Assembly (NCBI RefSeq): GCF_030209445.1
Contig: NZ_JARVSD010000018.1
Coordinates: 186,001-250,000, forward strand
Source: Promicromonospora sp. MEB111
GTDB lineage: Bacteria > Actinomycetota > Actinomycetes > Actinomycetales > Cellulomonadaceae
DNA length: 64,000 nucleotides
Reading direction: 5' to 3'
Shown piece after piece: positions 3,645 through 63,435 of the stretch; the first letter of the stretch is position 1, and every line of letters begins with the position of its first letter. A program made the position numbers and the translations under genes. The notes below the pieces were generated by a model. The model ran no database searches. It was not told the DNA's origin and worked only from the letters and a program-made list of their open reading frames with translations.

Positions 3645-3688
3645 GTGTCAGACGTACGGGTCACCCGGGTGACCCGTACGTCTGACAC
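3645..3688. terminator. 44-bp perfect palindrome (family B, copy 1)
   Basis: Both 22-bp arms match exactly, with no loop base between them; each half carries GTCAGACGTACGGGTCACCC. It sits between convergent genes, 3 bp after the Lrp stop and 32 bp from the RIO-kinase stop, so it can act as a bidirectional terminator. Nearly the same stem recurs at 63394-63435, with one paired substitution that keeps the palindrome. There is no T-tract. Confidence 0.75.
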
Positions 3689-3720
3689 GGGGCGCTACTG
3701 ACGCCGCGGCGCGCGGGTGT

Positions 3721-4875
3721 TCAGAACGCCTGCGCCAGGAGGTCGGCGAACAGGGCGTCCGGGTCGACGTCCAGCCCGCGGGCGATGAACCAGTCGGACA
3801 CGGTGCGGCAGTCGCGCAGCAGCACGTCGCTCGAGAACGGGTTGGCCGCCAGGTCCACGACCTGCGGCAGGTCGATGATGACCAGCCGCTCGCCGTGGGC
3901 CAGGATGTTGTACGGCGACAGGTCGCCGTGCGCGAGCCCGAGCCGGGCCAGCACGGACATGCCGTGCGTGAGCTGGTCCCAGTACGACTCCAGCAGGTCG
4001 TCCGACGGGCGCGCCCGGGTCAGGCGCGGCGCGGCGACCGCCTGGGTGCGGCCCAGCTCGTCGGTCTCCTCGGTGCCGATGAACTCCATCAGCACCTCGG
4101 TCCCGTCGATCTGCACGGGGTAGGGCACCGGCGCGCCCGCCGACCAGGCCTCGCGCAGGGCGATGAACTCGGCGTCGGCCCACTGGGTGGCCGACACCGC
4201 GCGACCCCAGGCGGACTTGCGGTCCTCCATGGCGCGCTGGTCGCGCGTGCGCCGCACGGTGCGGCCCTCGGTGTACTCGGACCCGCGGTGGAACTGCCCG
4301 TGCTCCAGGCTGCGGTACCGCTTGGCGACCAGCAGGCAGCGCGTGGCCGCCTGGTCGAGCGCCAGGTCCGGGGCGTCGTCGGACGTCGGGCCGGCGCCCT
4401 CCGGAACGGCGCGCTCCACGAGGAACGCGTCGGCCTCCTTCCCGGTCTTGAGGATGCCGAGCTCGGTGTCGAGCGCGGCGTCGCGGGTGACGACCCATTC
4501 CGGCAGCGGCTCGGGCCCGCGCTGCCCCTTGGCGACGGAACGCCAGGTGGACCAGCGCTGCCCGGGGCCGGGCTGGGTGGGATCGGTCTGGGTGGGATCG
4601 GTCTGGTCGTGGTCGTGCGCGACGACGCCGGACGGGTGCCGGTCGGCGCCGTCCTGAACCGTGCCGTCCCGCTCGAACGCGTCGGGCTCGTCGGAGCCGA
4701 ACCCGTCGGCCTCGAACGTGCCCGGGTACGGGCCTTCGAGGTCCTCGCGGCCGGCCCGCACGCCGCGGGCGGACCGACGCTCGTCGTCGGCCGGTCGGTC
4801 GTCGGACTGCTTGCCGCCCCTGCCGGCTGCGCGGATCAGGACGGACTTCTTCGGTGCTTCGGGAAAACGGGGCAA
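3721..4875 (-). CDS. RIO1-family atypical serine/threonine kinase
   Basis: A 384-residue protein with a charged, low-complexity N-terminus (about 1-115, including a double QTDPT repeat) and a RIO kinase domain after it. Visible landmarks are ILKTGKEADAFLV (nucleotide-binding region), the catalytic loop HGDLSPYN (316-323, Asp318, Asn323) and the metal-binding IDLPQ (Asp335). RIO proteins are ADP/ATP-dependent atypical kinases/ATPases; archaeal and eukaryotic ones act in ribosome maturation, and the bacterial role is unsettled. Translation starts at TTG 4875 behind AAGGAG (4888-4883). A 23-codon ORF with its own strong ribosome-binding site ends 33 bases upstream, which suggests leader-peptide control. 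Confidence 0.88.
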   Translation of the reverse strand: MPRFPEAPKKSVLIRAAGRGGKQSDDRPADDERRSARGVRAGREDLEGPYPGTFEADGFGSDEPDAFERDGTVQDGADRHPSGVVAHDHDQTDPTQTDPTQPGPGQRWSTWRSVAKGQRGPEPLPEWVVTRDAALDTELGILKTGKEADAFLVERAVPEGAGPTSDDAPDLALDQAATRCLLVAKRYRSLEHGQFHRGSEYTEGRTVRRTRDQRAMEDRKSAWGRAVSATQWADAEFIALREAWSAGAPVPYPVQIDGTEVLMEFIGTEETDELGRTQAVAAPRLTRARPSDDLLESYWDQLTHGMSVLARLGLAHGDLSPYNILAHGERLVIIDLPQVVDLAANPFSSDVLLRDCRTVSDWFIARGLDVDPDALFADLLAQAF

Positions 4876-4908
4876 GTCGGTGCTCCTTGATGCTGGAGCA
4901 CCGCCGGA

Positions 4909-4980
4909 TCAGTCCCGGGTGCTCCTGGTGACAGTGGCGTCTGCTGCCGCGAGGGCAGCTGCGCGAACGACGTCGTCCAT
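4909..4980 (-). CDS. 23-residue small ORF / possible leader peptide upstream of the RIO kinase
   Basis: The ATG at 4980 is preceded by AGGAAGGAGG (4995-4986) at a 5-base spacing, the strongest Shine-Dalgarno sequence in this part of the window. The peptide begins MDDVVRAAALAAADATV and ends TRSTRD. It stops 33 bases before the TTG of the RIO kinase on the same strand. It could be a leader peptide coupling translation into the kinase, or a genuine micro-protein: Ala-rich, with a short basic tail. No family is recognised. Confidence 0.5.
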   Translation of the reverse strand: MDDVVRAAALAAADATVTRSTRD

Positions 4981-5142
4981 CACTGCCTCCTTCCTGTCCG
5001 CACCGTGCCCGAACACACGTGCCGGAGCCGTTTCCACTACCTGAGCTGGCCGGTCAGCGAGCGCCTCAGGGGTTGGCCCGGTGACCGTGCGAGGAGCATG
5101 GCACGGGGCGCCGAGGAAGCGCACCTGTTTTTTCCGGGGCCG

Positions 5143-5240
5143 GTTCGGCACTTCGCTGAGCGTTCGGCAGTTGGCATCGAGATCGGCTCAGGCCTCTGCC
5201 GATCTCGATGCCAACTGCCGAGTCGAAAAGGCAAACTGCC
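5143..5240 (-). repeat. 98-bp repeat with long hairpin (family C, copy 1)
   Basis: It shares about 90 of 98 positions with 6524-6621. Its core is a perfect 23-bp inverted repeat, arms 5165-5187 and 5198-5220 (CGGCAGTTGGCATCGAG on the left arm), around a 10-base loop. The element ends 4 bp from the stop of the AbiEi-like gene, so in minus-strand RNA it forms right after that stop. Likely terminator or 3'-end structure. Confidence 0.75.
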
Positions 5241-5244
5241 GCGG

Positions 5245-6225
5245 TCAGGACGGCGGTAGCAGGGGGTTGACGCGCGCCCGCTGGAGCACGTGGGGTGGCA
5301 GGTGGGCTGTGAGACGGGCGAGCATTGAGGGGACGTCTCTGCGGTCGGACGCCGTGACGCGTTCCACGGCGACACCCGTCCGGCGGATCGCCTCGGCGCG
5401 CCCCTTCTCGCTCATGAACTCGCGCGCGGGGTCGTGACCGGTGCCGACGCCGTCCGGTCGGTACTTGATCAGGCCGTCGAACTCGACGCCCAGGTTCCAC
5501 TGCTCATAGCCGAGGTCGGTGTGGAACAGGCCGCTGTCGGTCGGCACGGCCATCTGGGTGACCGGCCTGGGAAGGCCGGATCGCAGCATCTCGTAGCGCA
5601 CCCAGGTCTCCCAGGGTGAGTGCGAGCCGCCGTCCGCCAGCTCGAGGACCAGCCGGGCGCGCCGGACGCCGCGCCGCTCGGCCCGGGCACCGAGCTCCAC
5701 CAGGAGCTCGGCGCGATCGATGTCGTGGCTCAGCGCGAAGTCCGCGATGACGAGGGCCTCCAGCGGGTGCAGCGCCAGCGCGCAGTCCACGACGGTACGC
5801 ACGAGCGACGTCACCGGAAGACCGTGCACGGTGGTGACGGCGTAGGCCGGGACGGTGCCCACGTGTCGGGCGATGTCCTTCGCCGCGCGGCTCGAGGGGC
5901 GGTAGCGCTGGTAGACGTGTGTGCGGTCAGGCACGGTCCAGACGGGGCACCCCAGAAGGAGCGCCGCCGTCGTGTGGCTGAACACCACGTTCGAGCGGAG
6001 CTGCCGGTGTAGCGCCCGGGCGCGGGCGAGCTCCCGGTTCCGCTTCTCGCGCGGAGCCGATGCGGGACCGTCCGCCCGGATGTCGTCCGGGTCGCAATAG
6101 GCACCCCGCCGGATGCGGGTCAACGAGCCCTGGCGGCTGGCGAGTGCCAGCTGATTCTTGTCCTGCTCGCGCGCCAGGAGCACTTCGGGGACGGCGACGC
6201 CGTCCTGGGTAAAGGTCACTTTCAT
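5245..6225 (-). CDS. AbiEi-antitoxin-like wHTH plus DUF559/Vsr-like domain protein
   Basis: A 326-residue protein. The N-terminus has the AbiEi-type winged-helix layout (VAVPEVLLAREQDKNQLA, then SRQGSLTRIRRGAY), followed by a middle segment with VFSHTTAALLLGCPVW and VTTVHGLPVTSLVRTVVDCA. The C-terminal part (SPWETWVRYEMLRSGLPRP, YEQWNLGVEFDGLIKY, AIRRTGVAVERVT) matches the DUF559/very-short-patch-repair-like endonuclease fold; VEFDG carries the usual acidic pair. Actinobacteria hold many orphan copies. There is no AbiEii toxin next to it, so a toxin-antitoxin role is not supported. I took ATG 6225 (MKVTFTQDG), where homology starts; the frame extends to 6285. Confidence 0.72.
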   Translation of the reverse strand: MKVTFTQDGVAVPEVLLAREQDKNQLALASRQGSLTRIRRGAYCDPDDIRADGPASAPREKRNRELARARALHRQLRSNVVFSHTTAALLLGCPVWTVPDRTHVYQRYRPSSRAAKDIARHVGTVPAYAVTTVHGLPVTSLVRTVVDCALALHPLEALVIADFALSHDIDRAELLVELGARAERRGVRRARLVLELADGGSHSPWETWVRYEMLRSGLPRPVTQMAVPTDSGLFHTDLGYEQWNLGVEFDGLIKYRPDGVGTGHDPAREFMSEKGRAEAIRRTGVAVERVTASDRRDVPSMLARLTAHLPPHVLQRARVNPLLPPS

Positions 6226-6523
6226 GGACACGAGCGTGGCGGGCGCGCGCCGCTCAGGTGTCGCCGTGCCGGACGCCCTGTGCACCAGGTGGCTTCGACC
6301 CTGCCTGTGGTCGCACTCGAAGCGTTGCGCCTCGGTGCCCAGGGACGTCTGGGCGGCGTTCGCGATCCGGCCCCGCTACGCGACGAACGACGAGAACGGC
6401 ACTTCGCGCCGGGGACCGGGGACCGCGTACTGGGCGCCGGGTACTGGGCAACGGGCACTGGGCGCTTTGCGCCGGGCACCGGTCGCGGGATCGCCGGCTG
6501 CGACAGAGCCCAGCAGCCCGCAC
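6226..6523. other. intergenic stretch with degenerate short repeats
   Basis: No convincing gene in either strand. From about 6407 to 6485 it holds an irregular array of 9-12 bp units of the type GGGNACTGG / CCGGGNACC, with a GGCACTTCGC box at 6399-6408 that also occurs inside both family C repeats. The array lies between the AbiEi-like gene start and repeat copy 2. Confidence 0.5.
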
Positions 6524-6621
6524 GTTCGGCACTTCGCTGAGCGTTCGGCAGTTGGCATCGAGATCGGCTCAGGCCTCTGCCGATCTCAGTGCCAAGTGCC
6601 GAGTCTGCGGGGCAAACTGCC
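6524..6621 (-). repeat. 98-bp repeat with decayed hairpin (family C, copy 2)
   Basis: The same element as 5143-5240, with 8 differences. The left arm is unchanged but the right arm has three substitutions (TCAGTGCCAAGTG instead of TCGATGCCAACTG), so the hairpin is imperfect. It lies 62 bp beyond the stop of the Ser/Thr-kinase gene on the same strand. Confidence 0.72.
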
Positions 6622-6683
6622 GACTTCCGAGCCCGGCGTCAGGAGGCTGCCGACCTCGCAGCACCTTGACGGACGCCGCGGGG

Positions 6684-9047
6684 TCAGCCCTCTTCCGAGT
6701 TCCAGGGAAGGGCGTCCTCGAACGACTGCCAGAGCGAGTCGGTCACGTCCTCGGTCGTGTCCTGGACGCCCTGTTCGAGGTCGTCCTGGATCTGCTCGCG
6801 CTGCTCCTGCAACGAGTCGCGGGCGTCCTGCGTGACCTGCTGCGCGTAGCCGACCACGCCCTGCACCGCGATCACGATGACCCACACGACGACGACCAGC
6901 CAGAACGGCCACGTGCGGCCGCCGCGGCGCGAGCGCACCGCGCGCACGAGGTTGACGAGGGCGGCCGCGATGATGCCGAGCAGCGGGATCGACAGCTCCG
7001 CCATGCGCGGCGCCCATTCCGGGTCGAGGCCCAGCGTCGCCACCGTGATGTCGCCGAGCGCGGCGAACAGGGGCAGCTCGGCCGCGCTGGGCATCGCGTC
7101 GAAGCCCGGGATCAGGCGCACGAGCTGGTAGAGCGCGATGAGGAGCAGCACGCGCGGGATCCAGCCGAGGATCACCGCGACGGCGCGCGGGCCGCCGTCG
7201 GAGCTCCGGTCCCGGTCGGCGCGGGCGTCCCGTTCGTCACGGGCGTCCCGCCGCGAGAGCCCCGCCGCGGGCCCGGCCGGCTGCACCGGTCCCGTCGGCT
7301 GGACCGGCCGGGCGGGCTGCACCGGCCCCGTCGGCTGCTGCACAGGCGGCTGGGGCTGCACCGGCCCGGTCGGCCGCTGCACGGGCTGCGTGCCGGTCGT
7401 CCCGGGCTGCTGCGCCGGCGACGGCGCCGTCCGCGCGCCCGTCGCCGCCGACCCCGGGCGGAACGAGGGGGCGACCTGCGTGGCCTGCTGGTGGGCGGCC
7501 GGCGCCACCCGCGGCGCGCTGCTGGTGTGCCGGCGGGGCGTGGTCGCGCCGGGTGTGCCGGGCAGCGGCAGGCCGTGGCGCTGCCGGTAGGCCGCCCAGC
7601 CCTCGAACGTGTCGGAGTAGCCCTCGGGCGTGAACGCCGGTGCCCACCGCATCGCGGCCCACAGGTAGTCCTTGATCGCGGCGGGCGCGCGCCCGCCGGC
7701 CCGCTGCGGCCCGACGGCGGCCAGGTACGTCGAGATGACCTCCTCGGCCGCGCCGTCGAACCCGTCGCCGTGCACCTGGTGCAGGCGGCCCATGAGCTGC
7801 TGGTCGTAGACCAGGTTGGTCATGGGTTCGCCCGGCTGCACGGGGTTGCTCGCGAGCACGCTGGTGGGCGCCACGGTGGCCGCCGCCGCGCTGCCCGTGA
7901 GCACCTCGGTGACCAGGCCGCGCTCGATCGTGGTGACCCCCGCCGCGGCGAGCAGCGCGGGGTCGAGCCGGGCGCTGTCGGTGGCGAGCTGGGCCACGGT
8001 GCGCGACAGGTTGTGCAGCGGCGGGCGGTCCTCGGGCCGGTGCCGCGTCATGGCCAGGATCAGGGGGAGCAGCCGCTGGTCCACGGGCCCGACATCGGCG
8101 GCCGTCAGATCGCGCCCCGCGAAGTTGAGGTCGTTGGGAAGCTGGCCCGTGGCGAGGAAGATCAGCAGGAGGCCCAGGCTGTACACGTCGGAGCGGGCGT
8201 GCGGCTTGCGCACGAACAGCTCGGGCGCCATGTACGAGATGGTGCCCGCCGCATGCGTCGACGTGGTGGTGCCGTGCCCCTTGGCGATGCCGAGGTCGAT
8301 GAGCACGTACCGGTCGGGCGCGGCGATGATGTTGGCCGGCTTCACGTCCCGGTGCAGGAAGTGCTCCTCCTGCAGCACGGCGAGGGCGTCGAGCACGTCG
8401 TCCGCCACGCGCAGCACCTCGTGCACCGGCAGGGGGCCCTCCGCGGCCAGGCGCTGGGACAGCGTGGGACCCGGCACGAGCTCCATCGCGAACCACGGCG
8501 TGGGGGAGTCCAGGCCTGCCGCGACGAGCTGCGGGAACCCGCGTCCGGCGAGCCGCTCCAGCAGGGCCGCCTCGCCGACGAACCGGTCCAGCGAACCCGA
8601 CTCGGTGTTGGTCAGCACCTTGAGCGCCACCTCGCCGCCCTGGCCCGTGGCCCGGTACACGTGGGCGAACCCGCCGTGGCCGAGCGAGTCACCGAGCTGG
8701 AACGGCCCGAGCACCTCGCCCGTCGCAGGGATGCGCGGCACGCCTCCGGGCACCCCGGAGCCGGTGTACGCGCCACCGGTGTACCCGGCTCCCTGCCCGA
8801 CTGCGCCCCCGGGTCCGGCCACGCTCGTGGGCGCCACGTTCGCGGGCACACCGTTCGCCGTCCCGGACGGCCCGGTGGGCAGCACCACCCGCGTGGGCGC
8901 GGTGGGCGGCGGGACGGTCCGCGTGGGCGCGGGCAGCGGCGGCACTGCCCGCGTGGGCGGCGTCGGCACGACGGCGGTCTGGTCGCCACCCCCGACCGGC
9001 TGTCCGGCAGGGCGTGCGGCCGTCATGCGGGTGGTCTCGTCGGACAA
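6684..9047 (-). CDS. membrane Ser/Thr protein kinase with C-terminal membrane module
   Basis: A 787-residue Hanks-type kinase. Residues 1-110 are low-complexity with spaced TRAVPP/TRTVPP/TRVVLP motifs. The kinase domain spans about 113-375: glycine loop GHGGFAHV (123-130), Lys143, catalytic HRDVKPAN (232-239), DLG (251-253) and APE (274-276). A disordered Pro/Gln/Thr-rich linker follows. The C-terminus has roughly three membrane segments (AVAVILGWIPRVLLLIALY, SIPLLGIIAAALVNLV, WPFWLVVVVWVIVIAV) and an acidic/Gln-rich tail. Translation starts at TTG 9047 behind GAGGAG. It lies 108 bp downstream of a paralogue sharing the start context and membrane module, probably one operon. There is no PASTA domain, so it is not PknB itself. 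Confidence 0.92.
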   Translation of the reverse strand: MSDETTRMTAARPAGQPVGGGDQTAVVPTPPTRAVPPLPAPTRTVPPPTAPTRVVLPTGPSGTANGVPANVAPTSVAGPGGAVGQGAGYTGGAYTGSGVPGGVPRIPATGEVLGPFQLGDSLGHGGFAHVYRATGQGGEVALKVLTNTESGSLDRFVGEAALLERLAGRGFPQLVAAGLDSPTPWFAMELVPGPTLSQRLAAEGPLPVHEVLRVADDVLDALAVLQEEHFLHRDVKPANIIAAPDRYVLIDLGIAKGHGTTTSTHAAGTISYMAPELFVRKPHARSDVYSLGLLLIFLATGQLPNDLNFAGRDLTAADVGPVDQRLLPLILAMTRHRPEDRPPLHNLSRTVAQLATDSARLDPALLAAAGVTTIERGLVTEVLTGSAAAATVAPTSVLASNPVQPGEPMTNLVYDQQLMGRLHQVHGDGFDGAAEEVISTYLAAVGPQRAGGRAPAAIKDYLWAAMRWAPAFTPEGYSDTFEGWAAYRQRHGLPLPGTPGATTPRRHTSSAPRVAPAAHQQATQVAPSFRPGSAATGARTAPSPAQQPGTTGTQPVQRPTGPVQPQPPVQQPTGPVQPARPVQPTGPVQPAGPAAGLSRRDARDERDARADRDRSSDGGPRAVAVILGWIPRVLLLIALYQLVRLIPGFDAMPSAAELPLFAALGDITVATLGLDPEWAPRMAELSIPLLGIIAAALVNLVRAVRSRRGGRTWPFWLVVVVWVIVIAVQGVVGYAQQVTQDARDSLQEQREQIQDDLEQGVQDTTEDVTDSLWQSFEDALPWNSEEG

Positions 9048-9155
9048 GCAAGGACTCCTCAGCAGCGCACCGGAACTACCGGTTGGACGTGAGAAACGCT
9101 ATCAGCGTCCTGCCCCTGACCGCGGTCGAAGTGCCCGACCCGTGACCTGGCCCGC

Positions 9156-10463: not shown

Positions 10464-10631
10464 GCAAGGGCTCCTCGGTTGTGGTCCCGGTTTCGACACC
10501 TGTTTGCGCGAGAACCTACCAGGTGGGGTGAATGCCCCGTTGGGGTGGCCAGCGGGCCGATCATGGCCGACGCTTGCTCTCGGGGGCGAACCCACGCTAT
10601 GCCGCCTGCCCAGGAACTTCGGAGGAAACGC

Positions 10632-12413: not shown

Positions 12414-12428
12414 ACGAGGGTCGAGCGA

Positions 12429-12466
12429 CGTCCGGCCCCCGCCCGGCAGCGGGCGGGGGCCGGACG
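12429..12466. terminator. GC hairpin terminator between convergent genes
   Basis: A perfect 17-bp stem with a GCAG loop (left arm CGTCCGGCCCCCGCCCG). It lies 15 bp after the ATPase stop and 20 bp from the DUF457 gene stop, so it can serve both strands. Not related in sequence to the other palindrome families. Confidence 0.85.
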
Positions 12467-12486
12467 ACGTCGTCGTGCCGGGCGGC

Positions 12487-13311: not shown

Positions 13312-13457
13312 GGTGGTGTGCGCTCCAGTTCCCGGGGTCTCCCCGAATCGGCAGTTTGGCCTTCTGACCAGGTCCGTTCCTGGCCGGGGCACACCCTAGC
13401 GCGGGCTACCGACACAGAGCTGGAGGAGCACGCCGCGCGTCCTGCGACGCGGTCGGG

Positions 13458-13949: not shown

Positions 13950-14063
13950 GTCAGGCCGACCGGGGTGGGCGCCATGACCTCCCGCGATACCGAAACCGGT
14001 ACAGAACTGGTAAAGGGCGGCGGCCGAGGAACACGCCGGACCCCGCGACGGTTGACCAAGGCG

Positions 14064-20098: not shown

Positions 20099-20187
20099 CG
20101 TTGAAACTGGCAGGAAGTGCGGCCCCCGCTCCCATCCTCACCGCGGAGACCCCAGGCTCTGGCCCCGGGCGGCCGCCGGCAAGTGAA

Positions 20188-20243
20188 CGGTAAAAGGTCA
20201 GGTGATCGGCAACTCGAGTTGCCGATCACCTGACCTTTTACCG
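20188..20243 (-). terminator. 56-bp perfect palindrome (family D, copy 1)
   Basis: 28-bp arms with no loop bases (left half CGGTAAAAGGTCAGGTGATC), 25 bp beyond the HNH-gene stop. On the minus strand it is preceded by GAGCAGGGTGATCGGTA, and the whole unit recurs at 44285-44345 in the same orientation relative to the gene before it. It has a short T/A run at the stem base. Confidence 0.78.
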
Positions 20244-20268
20244 ATCACCCTGCTCGAACCTGCTCGGC

Positions 20269-23472: not shown

Positions 23473-23534
23473 CTTCGAGGCCGGGGTTTCTCCGCTTTCA
23501 GCCGCCCCAAAGCGAAGAAACCCCGGTCTCGAAG
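23473..23534. repeat. imperfect 62-bp palindrome (family A, copy 1)
   Basis: The 26-bp arms (left CTTCGAGGCCGGGGTTTCTC) have two mismatches around a 10-base loop. It shares its stem with 34560-34621 and 38357-38420. Unlike those, it lies between divergently transcribed genes rather than at a gene 3' end. The rest of the 23389-23717 interval shows no gene. Confidence 0.7.
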
Positions 23535-27609: not shown

Positions 27610-27647
27610 ACCGAAGGCCCCCGAGGCGTACCTCGGGGGCCTTCGGT
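27610..27647. terminator. 17-bp-stem hairpin between convergent genes
   Basis: ACCGAAGGCCCCCGAGG pairs perfectly across a CGTA loop, 13 bp after the VOC-gene stop and 15 bp from the M23-peptidase stop. A bidirectional terminator by position. Confidence 0.88.
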
Positions 27648-34514: not shown

Positions 34515-34559
34515 GGGGTCATTGTGCCGCGCGGGGCGGGTCCGGGTTGGCCCGATCCG

Positions 34560-34621
34560 CTTCGAGGCCCGAGTTTCTCCGCTTTGAGCGGCGTCAAAGC
34601 GGAGAAACTCGGGCCTCGAAG
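34560..34621 (-). terminator. 62-bp palindrome with perfect 28-bp arms (family A, copy 2)
   Basis: The left arm starts CTTCGAGGCCCGAGTTTCTC; the loop is GCGGCG. It lies 27 bp beyond the ABC-permease stop on the minus strand and 45 bp upstream of the CDF gene start. The same stem occurs at 38357-38420 and, imperfectly, at 23473-23534, with paired changes at the varying position. Confidence 0.8.
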
Positions 34622-34648
34622 GAGATCCGGCAGCCGGGACGAGGGCGG

Positions 34649-38356: not shown

Positions 38357-38420
38357 CCTTTGAGGCCCGGGTTTCTCCGCTTTGACGCCCGTCAAAGCGG
38401 AGAAACCCGGGCCTCAAAGG
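38357..38420. terminator. 64-bp palindrome with perfect 30-bp arms (family A, copy 3)
   Basis: The left arm starts CCTTTGAGGCCCGGGTTTCT; the loop is GCCC. It lies between convergent genes, 12 bp after the hypothetical-protein stop. The TGA stop of the response regulator (38416-38414) is inside the right arm, six bases from its outer end. The stem is shared with 34560-34621. Confidence 0.82.
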
Positions 38421-43391: not shown

Positions 43392-44302
43392 GCGCCGTCG
43401 TCGTCATCACCGGAGCGTCGAGCGGGTTCGGAGCCCTCACGGCGCGGGCCCTGGCCGCCGCGGGCCACACCGTCTACGCGGGCATGCGGCAGACCGAGGG
43501 GCGCAACGCGCCGCAGGTCGACGCCGCGCGGGAGTGGGCGGCCGCGCACGGGGCGGACCTGCGGCCGGTCGAGCTCGACGTGAGCTCGCAGGAGTCGGTC
43601 GACCGCGCCGTCGAGCAGATCGAGGCCGAGCACGGGCAGGTGGACGTGCTGATCCACAACGCCGGGCACATGGTCGTCGGCCCGGCCGAGGCGTTCACCC
43701 CGGAGCAGCTCGCGCAGCTCTACGACGTCAACGTGCTGTCCACCCAGCGCGTGAACCGGGCGGTCCTGCCCGGCATGCGCCGCCGCGGCGCGGGACTCGT
43801 GATCTGGGTCTCCAGCTCCAGCGTCAAGGGCGGCACCCCGCCGTACCTGGCGCCCTACTTCGCGGCCAAGGCGGGCATGGACTCCCTCGCGGTGTCGTAC
43901 GCCGCGGAGCTGGCCCGCTGGGGCGTGGAGACGTCGATCGTGGTGCCGGGCTCGTTCACGAGCGGCACCAACCACTTCGCGCACGCGGGCCACCCGGCCG
44001 ACACCGCGGTGGAGGCCGACTACGAGACCCGGTACGCCGGGCTGATGGGTCAGGTCGCGGAGAAGCTCGCGGCCCTGGCGCCCGACGCCGACGTGTCGCT
44101 GGTCTCCGACGAGATCGCCCGCATCGTGGCCCTGCCCGCCGGGCAGCGGCCGTACCGGGTGCACATCGACCCGGCCGACGACGGCTCCGAGGTGGTCTCG
44201 GACCTCGCAGACCGGACCCGTCGCGAGTTCCTCGACCGGGTCGGCCTGCCGGACCTGCTCACGGTGCGGGGCGGGGACGGGGCTGAGCAGGGTGATCGGT
44301 AG
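43388..44302 (+). CDS. SDR-family oxidoreductase
   Basis: A 304-residue SDR, translationally coupled to the preceding SDR by a 4-bp overlap. It has the glycine motif [32 protein letters not shown] (N-A-G), the catalytic Ser in VSSSSVKGG and Tyr/Lys in [13 protein letters not shown]. The longer C-terminus ([20 protein letters not shown]) resembles oxidoreductases acting on larger substrates. The last codons (GDR then TAG) fall inside the start of a palindromic repeat shared with the 20.2-kb locus. Confidence 0.88.
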
Positions 44303-44345
44303 CAGGTCAGGTGATCGGCAGTCCGAGCTGCCGATCACCCGACAC
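44285..44345 (+). terminator. palindromic 3'-end element (family D, copy 2)
   Basis: It begins GAGCAGGGTGATCGGTAG, which contains the SDR stop codon, and continues into GGTGATCGGCAG (44310-44321) paired with 44328-44339 around TCCGAG. The leading string and stem match the minus strand of 20188-20255, the element after the HNH gene. Orientation relative to the upstream gene is the same in both. Confidence 0.75.
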
Positions 44346-44411
44346 CCTGCCGATCGAGCAGGTCGGCGACGCGAGGCCACCTAGACTCGCGGGAGCTCAG
44401 GAGGAGGGGAC

Positions 44412-50543: not shown

Positions 50544-50607
50544 CGTTGAGTGCTGGATTTTCGCCCTCTCGAACCGATTCGACAGGGCGAAAATCCAGCA
50601 CTCAACG
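50544..50607 (-). terminator. 64-bp hairpin containing the LysR stop codon
   Basis: Perfect 24-bp arms (left CGTTGAGTGCTGGATTTTCG) with a 16-base loop that folds further as TCGAA/TTCGA. The TGA stop of the LysR gene (50604-50602) lies inside the right arm, three bases from its end. It lies upstream of kdgD on the same strand. Confidence 0.82.
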
Positions 50608-53246: not shown

Positions 53247-53281
53247 CCGCACCGCAGGTCTGATCCGCAAGGGAAACGCAC

Positions 53282-55224: not shown

Positions 55225-55269
55225 CCGCCGGCGCCGTCCGCCCGGCTCCGCCGGCGTCCGCCGGCCCGG

Positions 55270-55332
55270 CGTTGACCACAGCGGTTCCTGCCAGAGAGGT
55301 GGCCCTCCTGGCAGGAACCGCTGTGGTCAACG
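55270..55332. terminator. 63-bp hairpin between convergent genes, containing the GntR stop codon
   Basis: Perfect 25-bp arms (left CGTTGACCACAGCGGTTCCT) around a 13-base loop that pairs further as GAGG/CCTC. It lies 45 bp after the UspA stop; the GntR TGA (55329-55327) is inside the right arm, three bases from its end, the same geometry as the LysR hairpin at 50544-50607. Confidence 0.82.
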
Positions 55333-56022: not shown

Positions 56023-56066
56023 GGCCTCATGCTTCCATCTCGATCCCGCCGACCCCACCCGACGTG

Positions 56067-57200: not shown

Positions 57201-57230
57201 GGCGCTCCTTTGCGGCGGGATGTTCTACCG

Positions 57231-57260
57231 ATCATACAAGTCGTGAACCTGTCTGACCAA
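57231..57260 (-). promoter_or_regulatory. promoter of the talarate/galactarate dehydratase-gntR operon
   Basis: On the minus strand TTGGTC (57260-57255), an 18-bp spacer and TATGAT (57236-57231). It is 30 bp upstream of the dehydratase ATG. The surrounding ACTTGTATGATC could include a GntR half-site. Confidence 0.55.
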
Positions 57261-57281
57261 TATGGATGGGACCCTGGGTCC

Positions 57282-58223: not shown

Positions 58224-58249
58224 GCCGACCCGAGCCTGAGCCGACCCGA
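58218..58249 (+). repeat. perfect 16-bp tandem repeat across a stop codon
   Basis: GCCTGAGCCGACCCGA occurs twice without a gap (58218-58233, 58234-58249). The first copy contains the TGA of the epimerase-like gene. Confidence 0.75.
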
Positions 58250-58281
58250 AAGGGGAGACGAGCGGCTGGTAGCATCGTCGT

Positions 58282-58710
58282 ATGGCGATGACAGAGGTTA
58301 CGGGCGATGTCGCGGCCCGGGAGTCCGAGGCGATGGTCGTGGCGGCGTGCCTGTTCCACGGGTTCTCGGACCCGTCGCGGCTGGCGATCCTGCAGCACCT
58401 GGCCCTCGGCGAGCACCGCGTGGTGGACCTGACCGGCCACCTGGGCCTCGCGCAGTCCACGGTGTCGAAGCACCTGGCCTGCCTGCGGGACTGCGGGCTC
58501 GTCGAGTCCCGCCCGCAGGGCCGGGCGTCGGTGTTCTCGCTGACCCACCCGGAGGCGACGCTCGCGGTCCTCGCGTCCGCCGAGAAGCTTCTCGCGCTGA
58601 CCGGCGACGCCGTGGCCCTGTGCCCGGTCTACGGCGTGGACGGCTCGGCGGTGCACCCGACGGGGGCGGCGGCGCAGGCTGCGACGACGGCGCCGGGGGC
58701 GGCGTCGTGA
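58282..58710 (+). CDS. ArsR/SmtB-family metalloregulator
   Basis: A 142-residue winged-helix repressor: HGFSDPSRLAILQHLALGEH, then HLGLAQSTVSKHLACLRDCG (recognition helix, with a Cys pair in HLACLRDCG) and LVESRPQGRASVFSLTHPE. A Cys in VALCPVYG and the His/Cys positions around the recognition helix are candidate metal ligands, as in CmtR/NmtR-like sensors. It overlaps the CDF transporter gene by 4 bp (GTGA), a metal-sensing operon. ATG 58282 or the nearby ATG 58288. Confidence 0.9.
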   Translation: MAMTEVTGDVAARESEAMVVAACLFHGFSDPSRLAILQHLALGEHRVVDLTGHLGLAQSTVSKHLACLRDCGLVESRPQGRASVFSLTHPEATLAVLASAEKLLALTGDAVALCPVYGVDGSAVHPTGAAAQAATTAPGAAS

Positions 58711-59648
58711 GCCACAGCCACGGTCCCGGGGGCCACACCCACGACCACGGCGCCCACGGCGACCCCGGCGGACGGCGCCGCCTGGCCGTCGCGTTCGGCA
58801 TCACGGCGTCCGTCTTCGTGGCCCAGGCGGTCGGCGCCCTGCTCACCGGCAGCCTCGCGCTCCTGGTCGACACCGCGCACATGCTCACCGACGTGGCGGG
58901 CCTCGCCATCGCGCTCGGGGCGGCGTCGCTCGCGCTGCGGCCGCCGTCGTCCCGCCGGACCTGGGGGTTCCGGCGCGCCGAGATCCTGGCCGCGCTGGCG
59001 CAGGCCGCGGTGCTGCTCGCCGTCGGCGTCTACGCCCTGGTCGAGGGCGTGAGCCGCCTGGTCGGACCGGCCGAGGCGCCCGGTCCGGGCCTGCTCGTCT
59101 TCGGCGTCGTCGGCCTGGTGGGCAACGTGGTGGCGCTGCTCGTGCTCGCGGGCGGCCGCTCGGCGTCGTTCAACCTGCGCGCCGCGTTCCTGGAGGTGGT
59201 CAACGACGCGCTCGGCTCGGTGGCGGTGATCGTGGCCGCGGTCGTGATCGCGACGACGGGCTGGGAGCGGGCCGACGCCGTCGCGGGGCTCGTCATCGCC
59301 GTCCTCATCCTGCCGCGCGCCGCCCGGCTGCTGGCCGACTCCGCGAGCGTGCTGCTGGAGTCGACCCCGCCCGGCATGGACCTCGACGAGGTGCGGGCCC
59401 GGCTGCTGGAGGTCGAGCACGTCGAGGAGGTGCACGACCTGCACGCCTCGCTCGTCGCGACCGGCCTGCCGACCATCAGCGCCCACGTCGTCGTGCGCGA
59501 CGTGTGCTTCCGGGACGGGCAGGCGCCGCCGGTGCTCGACGCGCTGCAGAGATGCGTCGCCACGCAGTTCGACGTGCGCGTGGAGCACTCGACCTTCCAG
59601 CTCGAACCCGCCGAGCACGCCCGGCACGAGGCACCGACGCACGCCTGA
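58707..59648 (+). CDS. cation diffusion facilitator (CzcD/ZnT-like) metal exporter
   Basis: A 313-residue CDF transporter. It opens with a His-rich tail (SHSHGPGGHTHDHGAHGD), then six membrane segments. The metal site is in LLVDTAHMLTDVAGLAIALG (H-x-x-x-D) and FLEVVNDALGSVAVIVAAVV (N-D-x-x-x-S variant), followed by the cytoplasmic domain with EEVHDLHASLVATGLPTISA and HVVV. It probably exports Zn(II), Co(II) or Cd(II). GTG 58707, coupled to the ArsR gene, which senses the metal. Confidence 0.93.
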   Translation: MSHSHGPGGHTHDHGAHGDPGGRRRLAVAFGITASVFVAQAVGALLTGSLALLVDTAHMLTDVAGLAIALGAASLALRPPSSRRTWGFRRAEILAALAQAAVLLAVGVYALVEGVSRLVGPAEAPGPGLLVFGVVGLVGNVVALLVLAGGRSASFNLRAAFLEVVNDALGSVAVIVAAVVIATTGWERADAVAGLVIAVLILPRAARLLADSASVLLESTPPGMDLDEVRARLLEVEHVEEVHDLHASLVATGLPTISAHVVVRDVCFRDGQAPPVLDALQRCVATQFDVRVEHSTFQLEPAEHARHEAPTHA

Positions 59649-59675
59649 CGTGTCCGGTGCCCGGCCGGGACTCGC

Positions 59676-60287
59676 CTACGCCCCCGACACCCCGCACACC
59701 CGCTCGACCAGGTCGCGCCAGCCCGCCTCGAAGCGGGCCGTCGGCTCCGGCCCCTCCAGCTCCGGGCCGGCGAAGAGCTGGAGCAGCAGCGGGCCGTCCA
59801 GCGCGTACGCGAGCTGGCCCGCGAGTACCTCGATGTCGGCGCCCGGCAGGTGGACCTCGCGCAGCAGCACCCGCAGGTGGATCTCGGACAGGGGCCGACG
59901 CCGGCCGGCCGCGTGCCGGCCGTCGATCGTGGCGCGCGCGACGGCGTGGTGGTCGGCGAGGAAGCGGACCCGCGCCGTGCCGTAGGCGATGAGCCGGTCG
60001 ATCGCGGGTGCCCCCGGGCCGAGCGGCGGCGGGCCGCTGAGCACCCGTTCCTGCAGCTCGCGCTCGCTGTCGTCGAGCAGGGCCTGGAAGATGCCGGCCC
60101 GGGAGCCGAACCGGCGGAACACGGTGCCCTTGCCGAGCCCGGAGCGTTCGGCCAGGAGGTCCATCGTGAGACAGTCCGGCCCCGCCTCGGCCAGGAGCTC
60201 GCGGGCGGCGGCGAGCAGCACCTGACGGTTGCGGGCGGCGTCGGCCCGCTCGGGCTGCGGTGTGCCCCACGTCATCGGCGTGCTCAT
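59676..60287 (-). CDS. TetR-family transcriptional regulator
   Basis: A 203-residue TetR protein with HTH NRQVLLAAARELLAEAGPDC and LTMDLLAERSGLGKGTVFRR then FGSRAGIFQALL. The ligand domain belongs to the type following KGTVFRRFG. Divergent from the nitroreductase-family gene, with an imperfect 22-bp palindrome between; likely its repressor. ATG 60287. Convergent with the CDF gene. Confidence 0.92.
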   Translation of the reverse strand: MSTPMTWGTPQPERADAARNRQVLLAAARELLAEAGPDCLTMDLLAERSGLGKGTVFRRFGSRAGIFQALLDDSERELQERVLSGPPPLGPGAPAIDRLIAYGTARVRFLADHHAVARATIDGRHAAGRRRPLSEIHLRVLLREVHLPGADIEVLAGQLAYALDGPLLLQLFAGPELEGPEPTARFEAGWRDLVERVCGVSGA

Positions 60288-60312
60288 GCTCCGGATGCTA
60301 TCGGGAACGGCA

Positions 60313-60334
60313 TAAGCGGGGTAAAGTCCGGTTA
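60313..60334. promoter_or_regulatory. imperfect 22-bp palindrome, candidate TetR operator
   Basis: TAAGCGGGGTAAAGTCCGGTT then A: its ends TAAGCGGG and TCCGGTTA agree at six of eight positions as inverted repeats. It lies midway in the divergent 86-bp interval between the TetR and nitroreductase genes. Confidence 0.45.
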
Positions 60335-60373
60335 GGTCGGCCGGGGGGCCGACGGAGGTCCGAGGAGGACAAG

Positions 60374-60805
60374 ATGACTGACATGAACACCGAGATCATC
60401 GAGGCGTTCAGGGCGAACGCGGGCGTCGTGAACGCGCCCGTCGCGGGTGGGCACTTCGACGGCAAGCGGCTGCTGCTCCTGCACCACGTCGGACGGGTCA
60501 GCGGCAAGCAGTACGTGACGCCGCTGGTGGCCGCGACGGACGGCGACGCCTACCTCGTCGTGGGCTCGATGGGCGGCGCGCCCAAGGACCCGACCTGGGT
60601 GGCCAACGTGGAGGACGGCGCCGCGGAGACGACCATCGAGGTGGGCGGCCAGACCCTGCGGGCGACCGCCACCGTGGTGCGCCCGACGGCGCCCGAGTGG
60701 GAGCGGCTCTACGGGATCTGGGCCGAGTACTGGCCGGACGCCAAGGTGTACGAGACCCACACCGACCGCAAGTTCCCGGTGATCCGGCTGGAGCCGACGG
60801 CCTGA
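60374..60805 (+). CDS. deazaflavin-dependent nitroreductase family protein
   Basis: A 143-residue F420/FMN split-barrel protein: GGHFDGKRLLLLHHVGRVSG then KQYVTPLVAA (the L-L-H-x-x-G-R-x-S-G-x variant of the Ddn motif), YLVVGSMGGAPKDPTWVANV and THTDRKFPVIRLEP. It is more distant from the tandem pair at 25.7-26.6 kb than those are from each other. ATG 60374 follows GAGGAGG. Divergent from a TetR gene. Substrate unknown. Confidence 0.88.
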   Translation: MTDMNTEIIEAFRANAGVVNAPVAGGHFDGKRLLLLHHVGRVSGKQYVTPLVAATDGDAYLVVGSMGGAPKDPTWVANVEDGAAETTIEVGGQTLRATATVVRPTAPEWERLYGIWAEYWPDAKVYETHTDRKFPVIRLEPTA

Positions 60806-60823
60806 GCCCCACGGCCTGAGCCC
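60797..60823 (+). repeat. 13-bp tandem repeat across a stop codon
   Basis: ACGGCCTGAGCCC occurs at 60797-60809, containing the nitroreductase TGA, and at 60811-60823. Third example of this pattern in the window. Confidence 0.6.
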
Positions 60824-60848
60824 GGCAGCCCCGCGCCCGGCGCGTGGC

Positions 60849-61967
60849 TCACCCCGCGCCGACCGAGCGGACGAACTCCCGCACGCGCGCCGCCATCTCC
60901 TCGGGCACCTCGCCGACGGTGAAGTGCCCGCCCTTCGTCAGGCGGTCGAACACCCGCAGGTCGAGGTAGTGGCGGCGCGCGAGCGACTCCGGATACGTGC
61001 CCTCGTGCCGCTGGACGAGGACGGCCGCGGGCACCGTCGTGGGCGGGATCGGTCCGGGCTGGTCGGCGCCCTCGTAGTAGGGGCGGAACGACGACGCGAT
61101 GGTCTGGGTGGCCCAGTAGATCGTGGCCTCGGTGAGGATCCGGTCCCGGGAGATGCGCCGCTCCACCGCGCGCGGGTCGCCGGGCGGGGTGTCGCTCCAC
61201 TCGACGAGCTTCTCCGTCAGCCAGGCCAGGAGGCCGGCGGGGGAGTCGTTGAGGGCGGTCGCGAGCGTGTCCGGCCGGGTGGCCTGGACGTGGCCGTAGG
61301 CGCCGTCGGTCCCGTGCTGGGCGGCGATGCCGTCGAAGAACTCCTTGACCTCCGGGTCGTCGAGGGTCGTGCGCTCCTCGGCGGTGGGGAAGTGGGCGTG
61401 GGTGGCGACGATGCCCGCCACGTGCTCGGGATACCGGGCGGCGATGAGATCGCTGACGTTCGCGGTCACGTCCTCGCCGTAGGTGAAGTACCGCTGGTAG
61501 CCGAGCACGTCGGTCATCAGCGCGTGCATGGTGGCGGCCAGGCGCGTCTCCGACATCTCGCCGTCCGCGTACGGCGTCGAGAACGCGAAGCCGGGCAGGC
61601 TCGCGACCACCACGTCGAACTCCGGAAGCAGGTCTGCGAAGTCGAGCTGCAGCGCGAACGTGTGCGGCCACCCGTGCAGCACGAGCAGCGCCGGCGCACC
61701 GGCCTCCTGCGACCGGAGGTGCGCGAAGTGCACGTCCGCGCCGCCGATCCCGGCGAGGAACTGCGGGTGCCCGTTCAGCCAGGCCTCACGCGCCCGCCAG
61801 TCCCAGCCGATCCAGTGGTCGACGAGCTCGCGCAGGTAGCCGGACGTCATGCCCGACGGCGGACGCCGGGGCGAGTCCTCGGGGATCCTGCTGCGCGCCA
61901 GGCGATCGCGCAGGTCGGTCAGGACCTGGTCGGGGACGTGCACGGTGAAGGGCCGGGGCTCGCTCAT
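60849..61967 (-). CDS. epoxide hydrolase family alpha/beta-hydrolase with EHN domain
   Basis: A 372-residue protein. The N-terminal EHN domain (about 1-95: [40 protein letters not shown]) precedes an alpha/beta-hydrolase: LLVLHGWPHTFALQLDFADL (oxyanion H-G-x-P) and VVASLPGFAFSTP. In the nucleophile region YGEDVTANVSDLIAARYPEH replaces the usual G-G-D-W-G; the Asp is kept but the flanks differ. The catalytic His is probably in GGHFTVGEVPEEMA. Likely epoxide hydrolase or a divergent hydrolase. ATG 61967. Confidence 0.82.
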   Translation of the reverse strand: MSEPRPFTVHVPDQVLTDLRDRLARSRIPEDSPRRPPSGMTSGYLRELVDHWIGWDWRAREAWLNGHPQFLAGIGGADVHFAHLRSQEAGAPALLVLHGWPHTFALQLDFADLLPEFDVVVASLPGFAFSTPYADGEMSETRLAATMHALMTDVLGYQRYFTYGEDVTANVSDLIAARYPEHVAGIVATHAHFPTAEERTTLDDPEVKEFFDGIAAQHGTDGAYGHVQATRPDTLATALNDSPAGLLAWLTEKLVEWSDTPPGDPRAVERRISRDRILTEATIYWATQTIASSFRPYYEGADQPGPIPPTTVPAAVLVQRHEGTYPESLARRHYLDLRVFDRLTKGGHFTVGEVPEEMAARVREFVRSVGAG

Positions 61968-62012
61968 GCCCCGACGTTATGCGCCGCCACTGACATCCAC
62001 CCGGGCCATGAC

Positions 62013-62054
62013 GGCCGGACGGACAGGTCACCCGGGTGTCCTGCCCGTCCGGCC
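62013..62054 (-). terminator. 42-bp near-perfect palindrome (family B relative)
   Basis: 21-bp arms with two mismatches. The outer stem is GGCCGGACGG; the inner 10 bp, CAGGTCACCC/GGGTGTCCTG, match the centre of the family B palindromes at 3645-3688 and 63394-63435. It starts 7 bp past the M6-protease stop. Confidence 0.72.
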
Positions 62055-62061
62055 GCGAGGG

Positions 62062-63309
62062 TCAGGGGTTGACCGTCACCTTCAGCGTGCCCGCCGGGCC
62101 GGCGCGGAAGGTGAGCACCGCGCCCGTCGTCGGCTCGGTCCAGGACGAGCCCGCCGCGAACGGGGCGTCGTCCAGGCCGCCCGCCGAACCCGGCGTCGCG
62201 TCCACCACCCGGACCGGGCCCTCGCCCGACCGCACGGACGTGTCGACCGTGTAGACCAGCGCGCCTCGCGCGCCGATGCCCTCGTCGTAACCCACGGGCT
62301 GCCGGTTCTCGACGACGACGGCGCGCGTCGCCGACAGCGGGTACACCACCATCGCGTCCTGCCCCGGGCTCGCGTCACCCGAGCGTGCCACCGGCGCCAG
62401 CCGCGCGGACGTCGTCCGCCCCTGGCCGGCGCAGACCACCTGGTCGTCGTCCAGCCAGCCGAGCTGCCACCGGTGCCAGGCGAAGTACTCCGGCCCCGCA
62501 CCCGAGATCAGGCCCATGAGGTCCCAGCCGCCGACCGCGGCGTGGTAGTTGCCCGGGTCCTCCGGCGGCGCCTCGAACAGGTAGAGGTCCGGCAGGCCGA
62601 GCGTGTGCCCCGACTCGTGGGCCAGCACGAGCCCGCCCCAGCGCCACTGGTCGTAGCCGAACGTCACGGCGTGCGTGAGGTGGTTGCCGTCGGCGGTGAC
62701 GTCCAGGAAGTTCGTCGTGGGCGAGTAGGTGATGTTCGGCGCCTCCTTGGTGGCCGTCACCCAGACCACGTCGACGTCGGTGAAGTCGAACGTGTCGTCC
62801 GCCGCGGCGATCGCGTCGCCGATGTAGCGGACGTGGTCCTCGTAGCTCAGGCCCCGCTCGAACGGGTACGACGTGGACGGCTCGGGCATCCGCACCCAGC
62901 CGTCCGACGTCGTCGTGGTGACGTCCAGCCTGCCGCCCGAGACCCGCTCCAGGTACTCGACGCCCGAGGCCAGGTTGGCCTCCGCCTCCTGGGCCGAGCC
63001 CGCGGACGCCGGATGGTCGTCGAAGTCCACGAGCAGCAGCGCGGCCTTGAGCGTGCCGACGGCCGGGAGCGCCTGGTCGTCCACCGGGAACCCGGAGCCG
63101 AGCCCGCCGACGGCGGCGGGCAGGCGGCAGTCGGCGGCGCCGTGCACCGCGGTCGGGGCGACGGACGATGCCGCCGACGGCGCGGCGGACGGCGGCGGGG
63201 AGGCCGCCGCGCTCGCCGGCACGGCGCCGAGGGCGAGGGCGAGGGCGCTCGCGGCGACCGCCGCGAGCGGTAGGGCCAGGGACGGTCGGGCGGCTCGCTG
63301 CTGCTTCAT
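62062..63309 (-). CDS. secreted M6-family (immune inhibitor A-like) metalloprotease
   Basis: A 415-residue exported protease. The signal peptide (about 1-36) has a hydrophobic core ALPLAAVAASALALALGAVP, with cleavage near ASAAA, followed by a Pro/Ser/Ala linker and LLLVDFDDHPAS, the M6 opening strand. The zinc site is HESGHTLGLPDLY (HExxH 231-235, third ligand region GLPDL), with GGWDLMG downstream as the Met-turn. It probably degrades extracellular protein. ATG 63309. It is downstream of another secreted-protein gene, separated by a palindrome. Confidence 0.9.
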   Translation of the reverse strand: MKQQRAARPSLALPLAAVAASALALALGAVPASAAASPPPSAAPSAASSVAPTAVHGAADCRLPAAVGGLGSGFPVDDQALPAVGTLKAALLLVDFDDHPASAGSAQEAEANLASGVEYLERVSGGRLDVTTTTSDGWVRMPEPSTSYPFERGLSYEDHVRYIGDAIAAADDTFDFTDVDVVWVTATKEAPNITYSPTTNFLDVTADGNHLTHAVTFGYDQWRWGGLVLAHESGHTLGLPDLYLFEAPPEDPGNYHAAVGGWDLMGLISGAGPEYFAWHRWQLGWLDDDQVVCAGQGRTTSARLAPVARSGDASPGQDAMVVYPLSATRAVVVENRQPVGYDEGIGARGALVYTVDTSVRSGEGPVRVVDATPGSAGGLDDAPFAAGSSWTEPTTGAVLTFRAGPAGTLKVTVNP

Positions 63310-63393
63310 GCGTGCTCTCCAGTTCGCTGGTCGGACATCACTCGAACCTTGCCTGCACCGCCGGGTCCGCGCTCGCGCGCCGGCCGGCGGAGC

Positions 63394-63435
63394 TGTCAGA
63401 CGTACAGGTCACCCGGGTGACCTGTACGTCTGACA
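63394..63435 (-). terminator. 42-bp perfect palindrome (family B, copy 2)
   Basis: Perfect 21-bp arms (left TGTCAGACGTACAGGTCACC). It differs from 3645-3688 at one position per arm (G to A on the left, C to T on the right), a compensatory pair. It begins 3 bp after the stop of the secreted-protein gene. Confidence 0.78.

Follow-up and report, generated by a model that had tools for sequence, protein, structure and literature searches.

Palindrome families at gene 3′ ends in Promicromonospora and their proposed partnership with AbiEi-Vsr-type nucleases

The DNA analysed here, a 64-kb stretch of a soil bacterium's genome referred to below as the window, carries a series of long palindromes together with a gene for a protein of 346 amino acids that lies between two palindromes of one family (Table 1). 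All eleven palindromes that a preliminary description had named by position, along with the extra members of its family lists, were found in the sequence, but three starts were about 10-20 nt off (5143, 6524 and 44285 in place of 5164, 6545 and 44294). The copy at 62013 had been placed in family B; its inner part is indeed B, but the remainder is not. Arms in the window are mostly 21-38 bp long, with one D core of 16 bp. The two palindromes that belong to none of the families A-L are probably ordinary hairpin terminators.

Table 1. Palindromes and the nuclease gene of the window
Feature	Position	Strand	Details
Family B palindrome	3642..3691	.	arms 25 bp, no loop
Family C palindrome, 3′ flank of nuclease gene	5164..5221	.	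arms 24 bp
Gene for 346-aa protein, between two family C palindromes	5245..6285	-	predicted AbiEi-type DNA-binding part and Vsr/I-Bth0305I-type endonuclease domain
Family C palindrome, 5′ flank of nuclease gene	6545..6602	.	
Non-family palindrome	12429..12466	.	convergent genes either side
Family D palindrome	20183..20248	.	arms 33 bp, no loop
Family A palindrome	23473..23534	.	
Palindrome outside families A-L	27610..27647	.	convergent genes either side
Family A palindrome	34550..34631	.	
Family A palindrome	38357..38420	.	arms 31 bp, perfect
Family D palindrome, imperfect	44294..44355	.	core 44306-44343
Family E palindrome	50544..50607	.	arms 30 bp
Family F palindrome	55270..55332	.	arms 25 bp
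Family B palindrome, chimeric or decayed	62012..62055	.	B core with different outer arms
Family B palindrome	63394..63435	.	arms 21 bp, perfect

The N-terminal part of the protein matches AbiEi in both fold and sequence profile, and its C-terminal domain has the fold of Vsr/EDxHD nucleases, EDxHD being the name of the Vsr-like class of I-Bth0305I. The PDB matches of the protein are to distant folds; a number of positions, acidic and otherwise, do not vary in either group, and E226, D257 and E268 are among the invariant residues. At the window locus its gene is neighboured by one with a RIO domain and one for a protein kinase, and no AbiEii toxin gene lies beside it. The preliminary description drew no link between this gene and the palindromes. 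The product is a candidate for the enzyme that mobilises family C. According to PMC7319586, those AbiEi proteins that have been studied recognise inverted repeats of 23 bp in the promoters of their own genes, and by analogy this lends indirect support to the earlier idea that the palindromes are protein-bound. A plasmid-borne nuclease was considered and rejected: 72,556 plasmid records gave two weak matches, one of them annotated DUF559.

The genome was sampled as the window together with 40 stretches of 20 kb (864 kb altogether), using one second-order Markov shuffle as the null. Palindromes scoring at least 13 numbered 133 in the 864 kb versus 7 in the shuffle, and those scoring at least 17 numbered 71 versus 0. 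The proximity to stop codons claimed for the window extends to this sample, with 59 of the 71 lying at -20 to +80 nt from a stop as positioned by crude GC3-based gene calls; of 20000 positions drawn at random, 1544 fall in this interval, and of 2548 drawn from intergenic DNA, 816 do. Copies assigned to families fall in divergent regions in 13 cases of 164 and in tandem or convergent regions in 131, and in tandem regions their median distance to the upstream stop is 20 nt. The reported lack of T-tracts was likewise borne out, since only 1 of 83 tandem-region family copies has at least 5 T in the next 10 nt. Six examples have hairpin strengths of -42 to -63 kcal/mol, which together with the 3′-end position fits a putative terminator role. 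On the sense strand in tandem regions, the ratio of G-U to A-C pairs is 38:27 for family copies and 20:4 for hairpins outside the families (Fisher p 0.044); as a sign of selection at the RNA level, the G-U excess is suggestive only. An Rfam scan returned 0 families at gathering level.

Families A-D exist as first proposed, with E, F, G, H and others besides, and they reach well past the copies originally listed: the 18-base core of family B (at most 2 mismatches) alone has 79 forward and 77 reverse matches genome-wide, against 0 for a reversed-pattern control. The elements have discrete, sharp ends, giving a unit of 48 bp for B and 70 bp for A. Paired changes that keep the fold had been noted in the window, and comparison of same-family sites between relatives confirmed them: in 53 base pairs both sides were altered and the pair was still Watson-Crick, in 64 a single side was altered, and in 6 both were altered without remaining Watson-Crick, versus about 8 doubles expected had the sides changed independently; the counts are partly non-independent, since a number of sites were used in several genome pairs. 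Symmetric blocks distinguish certain same-site copies, and gene conversion among palindromes is possible. A scan of 1.93 Mb for isolated arms of families A-F turned up few, most of them decayed palindromes, together with a small number of lone B arms. No direct-repeat excess indicative of target-site duplication was seen over mismatched-flank controls for B, A, E and C, save small 2-nt excesses in E and C, and no conserved insertion motif was found at palindrome sites; a fixed target motif and target duplication were both rejected. The idea that new copies enter the loops of older palindromes was also set aside, the symmetric-flank excess being slight for B only and nil for A, E and C.

Across 13 species of the genus, the copy number of the palindrome families ranges from 0 to about 145, and at orthologous gene ends of close relatives a palindrome may be present, absent or replaced by one of another family. 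These features, taken with the discrete ends, support mobility, as the preliminary description had suggested. Outside the genus, family A was found in no genome and family B is near control level. Part of the set is simply inherited, since same-site copies of one family are mostly more alike than random copies of the two genomes: between G000, in which B is the commonest family, and G127, the species richest in B copies, the values are 0.91 versus 0.83 for B, with no difference for A (n=2). Spread by viruses was rejected: viral_contigs gave 0 exact matches to 19-base cores of families B, A and E.

The association of the palindromes with the nuclease gene is the key to their reading. Alike palindromes stand on both flanks in 39 of the 60 nuclease homologues with enough flanking sequence, and 21 are without them. 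Among 320 control genes, taken from four species of the genus while the homologues span more genera, the only one so flanked was the window's nuclease gene itself; the homologues are related, so that this contrast is less independent than the counts suggest. The flank-pair score threshold of 12 was reached by 16 of 400 random palindrome pairs, and two of the 39 loci are weak, L258 scoring 12, exactly the threshold, and L241 13.5. The label E that L241 bears in the tree stems from a short chance motif. Every labelled clade of the protein pairs with a separate family of palindromes, namely A, C, D, E, F, G, L, M, N and P, and the families map on the protein tree with the minimum number of changes. 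A dispersed M family was predicted from the flanks of nuclease genes and then found. For families B, H and K no nuclease was found; between two B copies, no gene resembled the nuclease profile in the 23 rows from retrieved loci, each row being a B pair and several of them coming from the same locus. About 90 A copies are present in G127, where no A-type nuclease was found, and M copies are present in G122, G123, G124 and G130, where the homologue search gave no M-type match.

The nuclease gene could instead be a passenger of the homing type. Its targets would be palindromes spread by other means such as template switching, recombination or another enzyme, and it would lie between two copies because it inserted into or beside them. 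In favour of this are the many copies, and family B as far as seen, for which no nuclease was found, the likeness of the catalytic part to a homing endonuclease, and the turnover of family B between species although no partner enzyme was found. Palindromes without a matching enzyme are not decisive, however: for REPs, too, PMC3733652 reports that repeat families do not clearly track the transposase genes; and the assignment of one family per labelled clade with minimum changes, together with the predicted M family, fits enzyme-driven spread more simply. We regard the passenger account as unlikely. It is decidedly improbable that the flanking palindromes are operators for AbiEi-type self-repression and the dispersed copies an immobile regulon or set of binding sites. 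The repeats bound by studied AbiEi proteins (PMC7319586) do invite this explanation, but here palindromes stand on both flanks of the gene, the dispersed copies lie past stops rather than in promoters (13 of 164 divergent versus 131 tandem or convergent), a conserved nuclease-like domain would be needless, and presence or absence of discrete units between species would be an unusual origin for operators.

Ordinary terminators, intrinsic or U-less, inherited vertically and alike through convergence or old gene duplications, would account for the tight 3′-end position, with its median of 20 nt past the stop in tandem regions, for the strong hairpins and for the copies inherited in place, and the non-family hairpins of the same regions do look ordinary in their 20 to 4 preference for G-U over A-C. 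Such a reading is already disfavoured, and we hold it to be very improbable, given likeness over 48-70 bp across unrelated genes, sharp ends, up to 145 copies, no A found in any genome outside the genus and only a near-control level of B there, family swaps at orthologous sites, and the weaker G-U preference of the family copies (38 to 27). REP elements, which carry a GTAG or CGTC tag at one end and depend for movement on a Y1 tyrosine transposase (RAYT), behave similarly, as small dispersed palindromes with a gene flanked by them. However, a profile search for Y1_Tnp (PF01797) matched 0 of the 13 genus genomes, while the control search was positive in 5 of 14 named genomes, and the arms, mostly 21-38 bp, exceed REP stems of 5-13 bp as given in Table 1 of PMC3733652. 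Mobilisation by a RAYT is hardly credible, and in these genomes it is refuted except in the case of a Y1 enzyme so diverged that the profile missed it.

The data show the palindrome families, where they lie, how they turn over from species to species, and that nuclease and flanking palindrome correspond clade by clade. We think it probable that the palindromes are small, REP-like, non-autonomous mobile elements whose cognate enzymes are AbiEi-Vsr nucleases and which are tolerated as 3′-end hairpins, and we infer movement, cleavage and termination. Many families would be serviced, now or formerly, by their own AbiEi-Vsr enzyme from one protein family. The full gene-bearing unit would be palindrome-gene-palindrome, about 1.4 kb (5164-6602 for example), with most copies being the palindrome alone. 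The AbiEi part may bind the arms, whose length in the window is near that of the 23-bp repeats of studied AbiEi proteins; the nuclease part may cut or nick the element, perhaps in an extruded hairpin or cruciform state, and the hairpin would then be copied or joined at another site. We propose that copies persist mainly at most 40 nt past stops because hairpins there end transcripts in both directions, or are tolerated in that role. Hairpin-templated correction, copying from family members and selection for the fold could together keep the arms matched. Whether the system amounts to a separate class of selfish DNA we consider evenly balanced: near-perfect hairpins of 48-70 bp that an AbiEi-Vsr cut-and-copy enzyme, unrelated to known transposases, would place as new copies at the 3′ ends of genes, with about ten co-diversified nuclease/palindrome pairs in one genus and others in other Micrococcales, and with the hosts' transcript-end signals continually replaced.

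Co-location and matching phylogeny have yielded a testable pairing of a nuclease family with repeats. If the proposal is true, small DNA elements have a new means of spreading, one that relies on neither HUH nor DDE enzymes; a widespread group of AbiEi/DUF559-like proteins acquires a function; and mobile hairpins rewrite gene 3′ ends in these bacteria. Among open-licence PMC papers, searched by titles and abstract openings, we found none linking AbiEi/Vsr/DUF559 proteins to palindromic repeats and none on these repeats in Promicromonospora.

Several known systems share part of this picture. Of the features of an intrinsic terminator, the hairpin just past the stop is present (59 of 71) and the U-tract is not (1 of 83). 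DNA-uptake sequences are mostly single short motifs, and the hosts of uptake-sequence terminators are Neisseria and Haemophilus. MITEs of DDE insertion sequences are also non-coding inverted repeats at many sites, whereas the present elements are nearly all inverted repeat with no interior, show no target duplication and leave few isolated arms in 1.93 Mb. Paired uptake sequences form hairpins of common sequence that have been proposed as terminators (PMC2267715), like the hairpins here, which differ in their about equal forward and reverse numbers (79/77 for B) and their 48-70 bp units. AbiEi antitoxins, including Rv2827c (PDB 1zel), share the N-terminal fold, but the protein here has an extra nuclease-like domain and, in the window, RIO-domain and kinase genes as neighbours with no AbiEii toxin. 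Vsr-like homing endonucleases such as I-Bth0305I share the fold of the C-terminal domain, which here is fused to an AbiEi-type part and flanked by palindromes, with no intron or intein as far as seen. REP/REPIN-RAYT systems (REPtrons) and TIR-TIRYT systems (TIRtrons) likewise have small dispersed palindromes of several families per genome, repeats even in genomes that yielded no matching gene, and a gene flanked by its own palindrome family, paralleled here, by analogy and with another enzyme, in 39 of 60 homologues. Unlike in those systems, the flanking gene here encodes an AbiEi-Vsr nuclease instead of a Y1 HUH transposase, and the arms, mostly 21-38 bp, are near-perfect and lie strikingly close to stop codons.

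The long palindromes of the preliminary description are present where it placed them, three of them displaced by ~10-20 nt. Across 864 kb of the window's genome (G000; the window plus 40 more 20-kb stretches), 71 palindromes reached a score of at least 17, compared with 0 in one second-order Markov shuffle. The families also reach beyond those originally named: in 1.93 Mb scanned from four genomes, 405 palindromes scored at least 12 and about ten families recurred, with B the commonest in G000. Family assignment was by core motifs among the 333 palindromes scoring at least 13, of which 166 lie outside every family; shuffled arms gave 0/333 false assignments. Family K (CTGGTCGAGCTTGTCGAGACC and variants) differs from A-F in its forms: besides palindromes it includes single and tandem arms, and it is also found inside reading frames. 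K was seen in stretches of two other species of the genus, G127 and G128 (for example, loci L104-L123 and L124-L130), and none of the 133 palindromes scoring at least 13 in the 864 kb of G000 was assigned to it.

The proximity to stop codons noted earlier was borne out, as 59 of the 71 highest-scoring palindromes lie at -20 to +80 nt from one, a range that takes in 7.7% of random positions and 32% of random intergenic ones. The gene calls were made for this analysis from GC at the third codon position and are crude. With them, 164 family copies (score at least 15) were distributed as 83 tandem, 48 convergent, 13 divergent and 20 inside called genes or elsewhere, corresponding to 0.61, 0.75 and 0.16 copies per kb of tandem, convergent and divergent intergenic region. 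Family copies in tandem regions stand a median of 20 nt from the upstream stop (at most 40 nt in 60/83), and in tandem regions longer than 110 nt their median relative position is 0.13 (n=58), where even placement would give 0.5. No U-tract was found 3' of the family palindromes checked in tandem regions.

Centre-aligned copies cease almost entirely to resemble each other 24 bp out from the centre in B and 35 bp out in A, and neither a target duplication nor a flanking motif was found around family copies. Copies are as a rule whole palindromes. Isolated arms of A-F are few, most of them decayed palindromes and a handful single B arms. The B elements on G127 C1 at G127a 126139 and G127b 109797 (script coordinates) have outer symmetric arms that restart with TGTCAGAC, and they look like one B copy nested inside another. 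The paired changes previously described hold up: same-family, same-site comparisons, in which some sites enter more than one genome pair, gave 53 base pairs altered on both sides and still Watson-Crick, 64 altered on one side and 6 altered on both sides otherwise, against an expectation of ~8 doubles if the sides changed independently. Changes also come in symmetric blocks, as in E at window 50544 versus G127, and these look like a swap for another subfamily, not stepwise change. G-U versus A-C mismatches in tandem regions numbered 38:27 in family copies, no clear excess, and 20:4 in non-family hairpins (p 0.044). Because the G-U excess is clear only in the latter, this weakly hints that the symmetry of the families is maintained at the DNA level.

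Copy numbers differ greatly between species. Family B has 0.5 to 145 copies (mean of two strands; 13 species); beyond the genus, 118 genomes of the order were sampled and 12 of them have 1-3 matches each, 14 in total, against 7 matches in 6 genomes for a reversed B control pattern. All 65 exact-match stretches of B in genome_contigs stand under Promicromonospora names, from which the genus is taken to be Promicromonospora. Family A has no match in G119, G123 or G124, a single one in G125, ~10 to 90 in the other nine species and none in 66 genomes outside the genus; family E ranges from ~1 to 77 copies per species, with 1-5 matches in 5 of 86 outside genomes.

The palindromes turn over between species at individual sites. 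G000 and G127 share ~90% DNA identity, and 51 placeable G127 family sites carry in G000 the same family (20), another family (5), a non-family palindrome (4), a decayed copy (1) or none (21), a mapping that is automatic and whose alignments show some 'none' cases to be poorly placed. In reverse, 22 G000 sites carry in G127 the same family (17) or another (5). Clear swaps comprise B in G000 for E in G127, E for B, C for B, E in G000 and G125 for K in G127 and G128, and B in G000 and G127 for K in G128. At one site, B lies between the stop and another hairpin in G127 and G128, and G000 has the hairpin alone; in G127 this hairpin is almost intact, in G128 it is eroded, as if the newcomer B had replaced its role. 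Between G000 and G127, same-site copies show higher likeness than random pairs do in B (0.91 vs 0.83) and E (0.86 vs 0.74), with no gain for A (n=2), so many copies are inherited in place.

Coordinates of individual genes and palindrome loci
Feature	Position	Setting
Predicted nuclease gene	window 5245-6285 (-)	flanked by the window's two C palindromes
M6-type metalloprotease gene	within window 62012-63435	between two B palindromes in G000, G127 and G128
L065 palindrome	G000 C11:286877-286912	one arm repeats the convergent gene's last codons in inverted form; family B element at this site in G127
L099 cluster	G128 C18:49763-56049	four A, two C and one B palindromes in 6.3 kb, among sigma-factor, DoxX-like, EamA and MarR type genes

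The setting of the metalloprotease gene seems to be simple conservation, and the L065 palindrome looks like a product of template switching in situ.

Neither Pfam nor NCBIfam gives a match to the predicted nuclease at 0.001; its profile matches are AbiEi_4 (E 0.03) and PADLOC AbiEi (9.6e-15). Homologues turned up in 34 of the 39 genomes searched, spanning 22 of 27 genera, and a profile search across four genomes yielded 34 matches at E <=1. Most of the fetched loci have a palindrome on both sides. This co-location is tight. Among the 60 of 61 unique homologues with at least 250 nt on each side, 41 have palindromes on both sides, 39 as an alike pair (L258 and L241 being weak cases), 12 on one side and 7 on none. 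Of 320 control genes encoding 250-350 aa in four Promicromonospora genomes, processed identically, 16 have palindromes on both sides and one has an alike pair, namely the window nuclease gene itself. A family-based control gave 15/457 for both sides and 3/457 for a shared family at both flanks, the window gene included, and random palindrome pairs were judged alike in 16 of 400 cases. Among the 34 profile matches are further nuclease clades, each set between a pair of A, L, F or (by motif) G palindromes. Additional AbiEi-Vsr clades without clear two-sided palindromes (L278, L283, L277, L279, L280) are possible partners of families yet to be recognised. Between the same two kinase-like genes, G127 has a single B palindrome and G000 has palindrome-nuclease-palindrome, so the gene-bearing unit lies at the type of site that small elements use.

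The phylogeny of the nucleases matches the families. A tree was made of 57 of the proteins, with SH-aLRT support by a quick method. Mapped onto it, the ten palindrome labels carried by 35 proteins require 9 changes, the minimum; labels came from short flank motifs, leaving 26 of 61 homologues unlabelled and F on one protein. In the adjacent clades C and M the palindromes are related, sharing GAGATCGG. Family M, spotted beside nucleases before it was looked for across the genus, has 12-26 matches per strand in each of the seven species that carry an M-type nuclease, while G000 and G119 have none. Likewise, G128 has no E-type nuclease and almost no E copies. M copies also occur in G122, G123, G124 and G130, where the search for an M-type nuclease gave no match, and G127 has ~90 A copies with no A-type nuclease found, so palindromes may outlive, or do without, their own enzyme. 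No nuclease for B was found, and B without an enzyme is the largest gap in this reading.

Long palindromes extend to two other genera of the family, where they form their own families with other sequences (L203-L214): those scoring at least 17 number 9.3 per 100 kb in G170 (140 kb) and 9.0 in G008 (100 kb), compared with 8.2 in G000. Within the genus, G125 and G126 are palindrome-poor (2.5 per 100 kb in the parts examined), and none was found in 80 kb of G042, from another family of the order. A nuclease homologue in G008 lies between two alike palindromes, with a third copy of that family nearby.

A structural model of the window nuclease (31-row alignment, mean pLDDT 89.7) matches AbiEi over residues 33-218 and, at residues ~221-334, has a predicted fold matching Vsr and the catalytic domain of the homing endonuclease I-Bth0305I; the model for the A-type clade (15 rows, pLDDT 84.9) has the same two predicted domains. 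We infer that the nuclease would bind, cut and spread the palindromes. According to PMC7319586, AbiEi proteins that have been studied bind inverted repeats of 23 bp, a length close to that of the palindrome arms here. REP/RAYT, in which small dispersed palindromes accompany a Y1 transposase, serves as a working analogy for the nuclease and its palindromes, although the parts are non-homologous.
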